Source: Tepidiforma bonchosmolovskayae (GTDB lineage Bacteria; Chloroflexota; Dehalococcoidia; Tepidiformales; Tepidiformaceae). From it: 64,000 nt of DNA. Below, piece after piece: positions 56,231 through 62,331 of the stretch (positions are counted from its first letter, which is position 1; the number at the start of each line of letters is the position of its first letter). Made by a program: the position numbers and the translations under genes. The stretch is taken from contig NZ_CP042829.1 of assembly GCF_008838325.1 (NCBI RefSeq), positions 62,001 through 126,000 of the forward strand, in the 5' to 3' direction. The notes below the pieces were generated by a model, which saw only the letters and a list, made by a program, of their open reading frames with translations, made no database searches and had not been told where the DNA came from.

Positions 56231-56307
56231 TGGTCGGGGTGCCGCGATTCGAACGCGGGACCTCCTGGCCCCAAACCAGGCGCTCTGCCAGGCTGAGCTA
56301 CACCCCG
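56231..56307 (-). tRNA. tRNA-Pro(TGG)
   Basis: The minus strand gives acceptor CGGGGTG/CACCCCG, anticodon stem CCTGG/CCAGG with loop TTTGGGG (anticodon TGG) and T arm CCGCG-TTCGAAT-CGCGG. The discriminator is A and CCA is encoded. This is the wobble-reading proline tRNA. Confidence 0.95.
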
Positions 56308-56361: not shown

Positions 56362-56449
<88 letters not shown>

Positions 56450-56487: not shown

Positions 56488-56514
56488 TTAGCACTCTTGA
56501 CATGGGAGTGCTAA
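56488..56514 (+). promoter_or_regulatory. CIRCE element (HrcA operator)
   Basis: TTAGCACTC (56488-56496), a 9-nt spacer and GAGTGCTAA (56506-56514) form the exact consensus CIRCE inverted repeat bound by the heat-shock repressor HrcA. The spacer begins with TTGACA (56497-56502), a perfect -35 box. GATCAT at 56521-56526, 18 bp on, could be the -10 box. The operator is thus placed inside the promoter of the downstream FmdB-type gene. It is not followed by groESL or dnaK in this window. Confidence 0.93.
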
Positions 56515-56562
56515 GCCCGGGATCATGGAGGCAGTCTTATCCCTTCCCCTCGAGGTGCGCCG

Positions 56563-56838
56563 TTGCCGACCTACGAGTACCACTGCCCGGCCTGCGATGC
56601 GACCTATGAGCTGCGCCAGGGCTTCGATGCGCCAACCACGCATCCCTGCGAAGAGTGCGGCAAGGGCACGGCAAAGCGCGTGCTCCACGCACCGCCGATC
56701 GTGTTCAAGGGAAGCGGCTGGTACATCACCGATAGCCGGAACAAATCGTCCGCGTTGAGCGACACGACGTCCTCGAGCAGCGAGTCGTCGGAAAGCACGG
56801 CATCGGAATCGACCGGCGAAGCCGCTGCGGCGTCCTGA
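56563..56838 (+). CDS. FmdB-family zinc-ribbon protein under CIRCE
   Basis: The 91-residue protein begins PTYEYHCPACDATYELRQGF and has two CxxC pairs (CPAC, CEEC) of the FmdB/putative regulatory zinc-ribbon family. A Ser/Glu-rich tail (about 60-90) is probably disordered. The family is named for a gene near formamidase, and its molecular role is poorly known. The start is TTG at 56563, preceded by GAGGTG with 5 bp spacing, which is convincing. The perfect CIRCE element 49 bp upstream implies HrcA-controlled, heat-inducible expression, suggesting a stress role. The TetR gene follows 57 bp later. Confidence 0.88.
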   Translation: MPTYEYHCPACDATYELRQGFDAPTTHPCEECGKGTAKRVLHAPPIVFKGSGWYITDSRNKSSALSDTTSSSSESSESTASESTGEAAAAS

Positions 56839-56895: not shown

Positions 56896-57504
56896 ATGGC
56901 GAGTGAGGCCCAGCCGATTCGCGAACCCAAGACGCCTGAGGCCATCGCCACCCGCAACCGCATCCTCCAGGCAGCACGCGAGCTGTTCAGCGAACGCGGC
57001 TTCGACGCGACATCGGTGCGGATGATCGCCAACCGCGCCGGCGTGAGCGACCCGGCCGTGCACTACTACTTCCCCAGCAAGTACGACCTCTTCCGGGCGC
57101 TGATGGTCCAGCCCGACTACCGCACCCCGCCGGTGGCGCAGTCGCTGGATGAGGCGGTTGACGTGCTCTCCGCGATGTTCGACTGGTGGGCCGAAAACGC
57201 CCCGCTCGTCCGCATCCTGACCCAGCAACAGCTCAGAGGCGACCCGGAGGCCCTTGAGTACCTCCGCGACGGGGAAAGCCGCTACCGGGCTGAGGTGGCG
57301 TCCATCCTGGGCTCGGCCGGGTACGAGGGGGATTGCGAGACGGCGGCGGACCTCCTCTTCCACACCCTTTCAGGGTTCATGTGGGACGCGGTTATGACGT
57401 ACGGCAACGCCGCCAGGGAGGTGCTGGCCCAGCCCGTGTTCAAAGACCGCATCCGGTTCGCCATCCGCTGCGCCCTCGGGATGGAGGGCTGCTGTGGCGG
57501 GTGA
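56896..57504 (+). CDS. TetR-family transcriptional regulator
   Basis: The 202-residue protein has an N-terminal TetR helix-turn-helix (RILQAARELFSERGFDATSVRMIA, then NRAGVSDPAVHYYFPSKYDLFRA). The C-terminal ligand-binding domain has no recognisable ligand signature. TATACT at 56884-56889 lies 6 bp before the ATG, so the mRNA is probably leaderless. The next gene, another TetR, overlaps it by 11 bp. The two share nearly the same HTH, indicating a tandem duplication. Confidence 0.92.
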   Translation: MASEAQPIREPKTPEAIATRNRILQAARELFSERGFDATSVRMIANRAGVSDPAVHYYFPSKYDLFRALMVQPDYRTPPVAQSLDEAVDVLSAMFDWWAENAPLVRILTQQQLRGDPEALEYLRDGESRYRAEVASILGSAGYEGDCETAADLLFHTLSGFMWDAVMTYGNAAREVLAQPVFKDRIRFAIRCALGMEGCCGG

Positions 57505-58129
57505 ACGCGAACCTCCCGCCGGCCAGGCCCCCGGGGAGGCCGCGCCGCGGGATGACACGCGCGCACGCATCCTCGCAGCGGCCATGGAGGCGTTCGCCCG
57601 GGACGGCTTCGACGCGACCTCGGTCCGCTCGATTGCGCGGCGCTGCGGCATCTCGGACGCGGGCGTGTTCTACTACTTCCCAACGAAGCGTCACCTCCTC
57701 GAGGCGCTCTGGAACGAGGCCCCGGCAGGTTCGTTCCCGGTGGGCGACCCGGCTGCTCCGCTGACAGCTGAACGGCTGGCGGAGCTGGTGCGCGCGACGA
57801 TTCACATCTCGGCCGAGAATTTCACCTACCTGCGGCTGGTTGCGCGGCAGGCGCTCGCCTCAGACGAAACGGCGATTGCACTCCGCAACGCGTCGCGCGC
57901 ACGATGGCGGACAGCACTCGCGAGACACTTCCAAGCGGCAGGTCCGCGCGCGGCTGAGCTGGTCGAAACGTTCGCCGCCGCGGTGACGGGGTATCTCCTG
58001 CGGCTCGAGATGGAGACCGGTGACGCGTACCCCGAGGCGGTCCGCGACGATGCATTCCAGGAGCGGGTCATCCGCGCAGTCCAGCGTCTGCTCCCGGTGG
58101 AGCGCGCCGATTCCCCGGCTGCGGGCTGA
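57494..58129 (+). CDS. Second TetR-family transcriptional regulator
   Basis: The 211-residue protein has an HTH (RILAAAMEAFARDGFDATSV, then RSIARRCGISDAGVFYYFPTKRHLLEAL) very close to that of its upstream neighbour, with a divergent C-terminal domain. The GTG at 57494 lies in the end of the first TetR gene. Its stop shares a base with the dtd start (TGATG), so all three genes are one translationally linked unit. Ligand and targets are unknown. An earlier ATG would cut the HTH, so the GTG is preferred. Confidence 0.9.
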   Translation: MAGEREPPAGQAPGEAAPRDDTRARILAAAMEAFARDGFDATSVRSIARRCGISDAGVFYYFPTKRHLLEALWNEAPAGSFPVGDPAAPLTAERLAELVRATIHISAENFTYLRLVARQALASDETAIALRNASRARWRTALARHFQAAGPRAAELVETFAAAVTGYLLRLEMETGDAYPEAVRDDAFQERVIRAVQRLLPVERADSPAAG

Positions 58130-60387: not shown

Positions 60388-62331
60388 TCAGTCGCCGCCG
60401 GCCAGCGCCGGCTGACGGATGAACTCGTAGTCGTCGGGGTTCGGCTCGCGCGTCAGCTGCCAGTACTCAATGAGGTTGAACGGCCAGTTCTGGGCCGACC
60501 GACCCTTCTCGTTGCGGTACCAGCTGTTGACGGTGGCCACCCCCCAGACGCGCTCGAGGTTGCCGCGGTCGATTCGCTCGTTATAGGCATCGTGGACCTC
60601 CTTGCGGACGTCCAGGGCGCGCTCGCCGCGGTCAAAGAGCATCTTGAGGCAGCCCATGACGTACTGCACTTCGCACTCGGAGAAGTAGATGATGCTGCCG
60701 TTGACGACGATGTTGGTGTTCGGCCCGTAGAGCATGAAGAAGTTGGGGAAGCCCGGCACGGTGATGCCGAGGTAGGCGCGGGCGTCGCCATCCCACTCGC
60801 GGTGGAGGTCCTTGCCGTCGCGTCCGAGCACGCGCATGGGCGTGAGGAACTTCGAGGCCTGAAAGCCTGTGCCGTAGATGAGCACGTCGGCCTCGTAGAG
60901 GGTTCCGTCCACGGTCACGACGCCGGTTTCGGTCACCTCGCGAATCTTGTCGGTCACGAGGCGGACATTGGGGCGCTTGAGCGTCGCCGCCCAGATACCG
61001 TTGTCGAGAATCAGGCGCTTGGCTGCAGGCGGGTAGTCCGGCATCACCTTGGGCAGCAGGTCGGGCCGGTCGGCGAACTGCATCTGGAGGTAGGCCGTCA
61101 GCAGCTGGCGAAGGTTCTCGTTCTCGGGGCCGACCGAGCGGGATTTGTCGGGCCAGGTGGGGTCGACCTTCGCGGCAGCGAGCAGGCCGTCGGTGGTGTT
61201 CCAGAAGAGCCAGAATCGGTACCAGTGGGCGTAATGGGGCACGTGCGTGAAGAGCCACCGGAGGCCGGCCGGGACCTCATCGTGGTAGTGCGGCACGGGC
61301 ACATACCAGTTGGGCGTCCGCTGGAAGATGGTGACTTCGCCGGCGACCTTCGCGACCTCGGGGATGAACTGCGCGGCGCTCGCCCCGGTACCGATGACGG
61401 CGACCCGCTTGCCGGCGAGGTCGACGGAGTGGTCCCAGCGGGCAGAGTGGAACTGCGGACCGCGGAACCGCCCGAGGCCCGGGATATCGGGAATCTTGGG
61501 GCGATTCAGCTGGCCGACCGCGCTGATGACGGCGTTAGCGCGGAGCTCTTCTTCGGTTCCATCAGCGCGGCGGATGTGGACGACCCATTCGGCGCGGTCA
61601 TCATCCCACTGGAGGAGGGTGACCTCCGTGTTGAACTGGACGTGCTCGCGAACGCCGAACTCGCGGGCACACTCCTGGAAGTACTCGAGGAGTACGGGCT
61701 GTGTGGAGTAGTGGGTCGGCCAGTCAATCTTCTGGGCGAAGCTGTAGCTGTAAAACGCGTTCGAAACGTCGACACGCGCACCCGGATAGGTGTTCTCAAG
61801 CCAGGTGCCGCCGATGTCGTGGTTCTTCTCAAGGATGGTGAACGGTATGCCGGCCTGCTTGAGCCGAATCCCCGCGAGGATGCCGGACATCCCTGCGCCG
61901 ATGATGATGACGCTGAACGGAACCGAGGGGTCCTTCCGCCAGGCGGGAGCTCGGGGGTCCTGGCCCTCGGGCGCGAGTTCTTCGAGCAGGAGCGGGACGT
62001 AGTCCTCAGAAACCGGCGAGCCGGTCATCCACGCCGTAATCCGGAGCAGCGCCTCTTCGACCGGGACCTCGCCGGAGACCTGGCCGTCGCGGAGCCGCTT
62101 GAGGGCTTCGAAGGCGACTTCCTTCGCCTCGGCCTGCTGGGCGGGCGTCATACCGCCCTGCTGGACGCCCGGGGCAACGCCAGGAGGCCGCAGCGATTCG
62201 CGGAGGATCGAGAAGTCGCCGGTAGCCTGGGCGAGTGCAGGCAGCAGTGCAGGGAGGAAGGCGTCTTCGAGCGCTGCGCGAAGCTCGTCATCGGTTGCGA
62301 CGAGCGGCTCGACGGGGCGGCTGATTGGCAT
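60388..62331 (-). CDS. Flavin-containing monooxygenase (Baeyer-Villiger type)
   Basis: The 647-residue protein has an N-terminal helical extension of about 130 residues. It has a first FAD-binding motif VIIGAGMSGILAGIRLKQAG and a second, NADPH-binding motif VAVIGTGASAAQFIPEVA. The BVMO fingerprint is FRGPQFHSARWDHSVDL (FxGxxxHxxxWD) and the NADP-region motif is LIYGTGFQ. It would oxygenate ketones or other carbonyl compounds to esters with NADPH and oxygen, with unknown substrate. The ATG at 62331 has no clear Shine-Dalgarno. tRNA-Met lies upstream on the same strand. Confidence 0.9.
   Translation of the reverse strand: MPISRPVEPLVATDDELRAALEDAFLPALLPALAQATGDFSILRESLRPPGVAPGVQQGGMTPAQQAEAKEVAFEALKRLRDGQVSGEVPVEEALLRITAWMTGSPVSEDYVPLLLEELAPEGQDPRAPAWRKDPSVPFSVIIIGAGMSGILAGIRLKQAGIPFTILEKNHDIGGTWLENTYPGARVDVSNAFYSYSFAQKIDWPTHYSTQPVLLEYFQECAREFGVREHVQFNTEVTLLQWDDDRAEWVVHIRRADGTEEELRANAVISAVGQLNRPKIPDIPGLGRFRGPQFHSARWDHSVDLAGKRVAVIGTGASAAQFIPEVAKVAGEVTIFQRTPNWYVPVPHYHDEVPAGLRWLFTHVPHYAHWYRFWLFWNTTDGLLAAAKVDPTWPDKSRSVGPENENLRQLLTAYLQMQFADRPDLLPKVMPDYPPAAKRLILDNGIWAATLKRPNVRLVTDKIREVTETGVVTVDGTLYEADVLIYGTGFQASKFLTPMRVLGRDGKDLHREWDGDARAYLGITVPGFPNFFMLYGPNTNIVVNGSIIYFSECEVQYVMGCLKMLFDRGERALDVRKEVHDAYNERIDRGNLERVWGVATVNSWYRNEKGRSAQNWPFNLIEYWQLTREPNPDDYEFIRQPALAGGD

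Follow-up and report, generated by a model that had tools for sequence, protein, structure and literature searches.

Collectively, our results indicate that an fmdB-type gene of Tepidiforma bonchosmolovskayae is very probably the Chloroflexota orthologue of ruc (M. tuberculosis Rv0991c) within the HrcA regulon, its product being, by homology, a predicted redox chaperone. The pairing of CIRCE with FmdB is widespread and already known, Ruc having been studied experimentally as a redox-regulated chaperone (PMC7448276); the additions made by the present analysis are a conserved promoter-operator design and a divergent tRNA-Ser gene located 38 nt from the operator. The operator, promoter, HrcA, regulon, conservation and domain architecture on which this assignment is built are all read from the sequence. 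The locus lies in a 64,000-nucleotide stretch of DNA (positions 62,001 to 126,000 of contig NZ_CP042829.1; hereafter, the window), where the following features are found:

56231-56307, minus strand: tRNA-Pro(UGG), running leftward from CIRCE (ARAGORN)
56362-56449, minus strand: tRNA-Ser(UGA), divergent, 5' end 38 nt from CIRCE (ARAGORN)
56488-56514, plus strand: CIRCE, predicted HrcA operator, a perfect 9-9-9 inverted repeat (exact match; family conservation)
56497-56502, plus strand: TTGACA within the CIRCE spacer, likely -35 hexamer (promoter scan; TTGAC in 26/33 family sites)
56521-56526, plus strand: GATCAT, likely -10 hexamer (fixed distance from CIRCE, conserved in 26 loci)
56563-56838, plus strand: fmdB/ruc-type gene, 91 aa, TTG start, with a Cys8/11/29/32 zinc ribbon and a Ser/Glu-rich tail (ORF, profiles, alignment, model)
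56896-57504 and 57494-58129, after fmdB: two tandem TetR-family genes with an 11-base overlap

The initial annotation had correctly reported an exact CIRCE (TTAGCACTC-N9-GAGTGCTAA), which lies at 56488-56514. A pattern search of the window recovers it as TTAGCACTC TTGACATGG GAGTGCTAA with 0 mismatches, 48 nt upstream of the TTG of the fmdB-type gene, and it remains the sole match in the window when up to 3 mismatches are allowed; the TTGACA reported within its spacer is present at 56497-56502. The TTG-started gene of the FmdB family described behind it is equally real, as the product of 56563-56838 passes the curated thresholds of two models, TIGR02605 ("FmdB family zinc ribbon protein"; E 1.8e-15; 56.7 bits, cut-off 31.3) and PF09723. 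The start codon is supported by the relatives, which open with MPTYEY at the same codon, via TTG, GTG or ATG, and a GAGGTG located a few bases upstream fits, by eye, a ribosome-binding site. In an alignment of 24 orthologues, C8, C11, C29 and C32 are invariant, in a CxxC-N17-CxxC arrangement, and the Ser/Thr/Glu-rich C terminus is variable. The predicted structure of the 91-aa protein consists of a beta core extending to about residue 56 and a tail with pLDDT of about 45-50, which is below 50 over residues 66-82; no solved structure of a relative was found at E values up to 1.

Rv0991c of M. tuberculosis was named Ruc in 2020 (PMC7448276). It has been shown that M. tuberculosis HrcA directly represses four genes, namely, three Hsp60/Hsp10 genes and ruc, that the Ruc level goes up at 45 C and in the hrcA mutant, and that the SigH and HrcA sites overlap at ruc (PMC7448276). 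The protein carries cysteines 8, 11, 29 and 32 and a disordered tail; zinc-bound Ruc is inactive, and oxidised Ruc prevents luciferase aggregation and cooperates with the Hsp70 system, the chaperone activity being dependent on the tail (PMC7448276). Ruc was present in all 22 Chloroflexi genomes searched by its authors, where it is associated with chaperone genes, and it anticorrelates with Hsp33 (PMC7448276). The chaperone activity is known largely from one study, and the mutant showed no phenotype in the mouse model used (PMC7448276). Because the name FmdB is absent from that paper, the link between FmdB and Ruc is easily missed. Our literature search retrieved no paper naming FmdB together with HrcA, and a search on Chloroflexi, CIRCE and HrcA returned nothing besides work on Myxococcus.

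The T. bonchosmolovskayae protein shares with Ruc the four cysteines at positions 8, 11, 29 and 32 (the Ruc positions were taken from mutant names and primers in PMC7448276, with related Actinomycetota proteins standing in for Rv0991c), as well as the combination of a short zinc ribbon with a hydrophilic tail, disordered in Ruc and predicted to be disordered here. The likeness extends to an HrcA site, predicted here, that overlaps the promoter. HrcA control and coregulation with the GroES/GroEL chaperonins, known for Ruc, are predicted here from the operator and the encoded HrcA, and from the shared CIRCE, respectively. Furthermore, a search of the genome for Hsp33 found none, in line with the anticorrelation described for Ruc and Hsp33. 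Two differences stand out: the overlapping promoter is SigH-dependent in M. tuberculosis, whereas here it is of the sigma-70 type, with TTGACA embedded in the CIRCE spacer, and dnaK-grpE and dnaJ carry CIRCE too in this genome.

Scanning 84,980 genomes, each representing one species, for the 12-base CIRCE core with an FmdB-type N terminus 20-80 bases downstream uncovered at least 119 CIRCE-FmdB loci, mostly in Actinomycetota, the FmdB-type N terminus being present in all 119 listed. Among the matches listed, FKGSGFY-x-(T/N)D and a Ser-rich tail come next in nearly all, although contig ends or frameshifts interrupt a few, and the 80 named ones comprise, by title, 69 Actinomycetota, nine Chloroflexota, one Armatimonadota and one Eremiobacterota; HRbin29, the title of which gives no phylum, was placed in Chloroflexota because its sequence matches locus L045 of the family. 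A 400-genome draw of Chloroflexota gave two CIRCE-FmdB matches, both from family members, and none in the Chloroflexota sampled outside the class, under a pattern so strict that it provides no count of absences. When five paralogues of T. bonchosmolovskayae were compared with the CIRCE-linked proteins from other phyla, the best match was the product of 56563-56838.

These comparisons bear on the most durable of the alternatives, in which HrcA controls the gene but the product is not a Ruc-like chaperone, being instead a zinc-binding accessory factor (e.g., a metal- or ribosome-related regulator) needed after heat shock. The name FmdB itself derives from a presumed regulator, and the genome's further TIGR02605 matches lack CIRCE and end in different tails, so that the family is functionally mixed. 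Nevertheless, we regard this explanation as unlikely, given that this member, unlike the paralogues from the same genome, has the FKGSG[WF]Y-TD motif and the Ser-rich tail in common with the Actinomycetota CIRCE-linked forms, and that it shows the Cys positions of Ruc. Although the protein belongs to the FmdB family by both models, it is set apart by its operator, with CIRCE found at only one of the seven TIGR02605 matches in the genome. CIRCE as a general trait of FmdB genes was accordingly rejected, the other six matches having none within approximately 1.5 kb on the match-containing strand (best 6-8 mismatches).

In the genome, scanned as one contig of 2,746,948 bases with up to 3 mismatches allowed, there are five CIRCE-like sites, the worst with 2 mismatches, and a reversed-pattern control yielded 0. 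Besides the site in the window, these are (genome scan; genes confirmed with NCBIfam models):

CIRCE before hrcA-grpE-dnaK: exact
CIRCE before groES-groEL: one mismatch
L009:2940-2966 (genome C1:1683939-1683965), CIRCE before a second groEL (groEL2): exact
L006:1559-1585 (genome C1:963158-963184), CIRCE before dnaJ: two mismatches

HrcA, on the presence of which the original proposal depended, is encoded in the genome (TIGR00331 equivalog, 296 bits versus a cut-off of 197; PF01628, E 2.8e-43). With a canonical operator, HrcA and canonical chaperone targets, this set resembles the known CIRCE/HrcA regulon (groESL, hrcA-grpE-dnaK-dnaJ), from which it differs in having ruc/fmdB as a predicted fifth target; in M. 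tuberculosis, ruc is among the genes repressed by HrcA. The initial annotation had assigned the FmdB gene to the HrcA regulon and suggested a protein-quality or ribosome-stress role. Since HrcA is encoded, the four remaining CIRCE sites all lie before chaperone operons and relatives retain CIRCE next to FmdB, the predicted regulon membership and a protein-quality role are well supported, the latter also by the studied case of Ruc; the ribosome-stress part gained no support here. At the dnaJ site, the right arm of CIRCE is changed to CACTGCTAA, a deviation that this genome shares with family members; CACTGCTAA creates TACACT, and the operator arm may therefore include a -10 element. TTGACA is also present in the groEL2 spacer, ATTGACAGG, which recurs unchanged in several family members.

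A search for the same arrangement in related genomes, proposed at the outset, was productive both within the family and beyond it. An orthologue of the fmdB-type gene is present in nearly all family members, and CIRCE (3 mismatches or fewer) precedes it in 33 of the 34 family loci (L017-L050), at 37-78 nt from the start codon and with no more than 2 mismatches in 32 of the 33; L050 is the only locus without it. Elsewhere in the class, CIRCE is found before the orthologue in five other families, with one mismatch at L052, L057, L061 and L063, and in G051 it occupies C175:369-395, 28 nt upstream of the minus-strand orthologue at 161-340. Pairs of TetR homologues come after fmdB in many family members too. 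In T. bonchosmolovskayae, TATACT lies only a few bases upstream of the ATG of the first TetR gene, an arrangement that would fit a separate, leaderless transcript.

The promoter scan of the window returned TTGACA-18-GATCAT, with 10 of 12 positions matching, versus 0.0 in shuffled sequences. The TTGACA in the CIRCE spacer is thus the likely -35 element of a sigma-70 promoter, with GATCAT as the -10 element at 18-nt spacing, from which the fmdB-type transcript is expected to start near 56533. Across the family, the spacer opens with TTGAC in 26 of the 33 CIRCE-fmdB sites. Conservation of TTGAC among these 26 loci is no evidence, because they were picked by that feature; the -10 hexamer (CIRCE positions 33-38) played no part in the choice, and there the second-position A is found in 24 of the 26, the fifth-position A in 23 and the sixth-position T in 25, with flanking bases near random. 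Given that the likely -35 hexamer is located inside the spacer, HrcA bound there should block RNA polymerase. All seven family sites without the TTGAC spacer belong to genus g13 (L040-L044, L046 and L048), in which the CIRCE spacer differs and the promoter must therefore be placed differently.

The tRNA-Ser(UGA) gene begins 38 nt left of CIRCE on the opposite strand, and 21 of the 34 family loci have tRNA-Ser in this divergent position (gap of 25-82 nt where CIRCE is present), which lends some appeal to the idea that CIRCE serves the divergent tRNA-Ser and tRNA-Pro genes instead of, or alongside, fmdB. We consider this very improbable: the remaining 13 loci have no tRNA there, an inverted one or another one, yet 12 of them keep CIRCE, the -35 in the spacer and the downstream -10 point towards fmdB, and the CIRCE-FmdB pairing recurs in other phyla. 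Those 12 CIRCE-bearing loci also make control of tRNA-Ser(UGA) unlikely as the main purpose of the operator. A variant compatible with Ruc orthology, in which the operator is divergent and HrcA at CIRCE also modulates the tRNA-Ser(UGA) promoter 38 nt away, strikes us as quite doubtful; if true, it would link heat shock to serine tRNA supply in this family. Finally, a functionless chance palindrome can be dismissed, with nothing found in its favour and, against it, an expectation from shuffles of 0.02 per window, 0 matches in the genome control and retention of CIRCE across the family.

We thus favour the assignment of the locus as a ruc orthologue under HrcA, and infer HrcA binding, heat induction and redox chaperone activity from its sequence features and by analogy with M. 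tuberculosis. In the proposed scheme, HrcA would sit on CIRCE, mask the -35 element of the sigma-70 promoter and hold down expression of the fmdB/ruc-type gene. Once heat or another proteotoxic stress had put HrcA out of action, the gene would be induced together with hrcA-grpE-dnaK, groESL, groEL2 and dnaJ. By homology to Ruc, the zinc-bound product would be inactive until oxidation of its cysteines turned it into a holdase, which would then hand its clients to DnaK-DnaJ-GrpE.

The present results extend the HrcA control of ruc, experimental in M. tuberculosis, to a distant phylum by means of sequence, and point to a design, with the likely -35 element in the CIRCE spacer and the likely -10 element at a fixed distance, which is conserved across much of the family. 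They support counting Ruc among the core members of the HrcA heat-shock response in lineages that lack Hsp33, and offer annotators a reason to name CIRCE-linked FmdB proteins probable chaperones.
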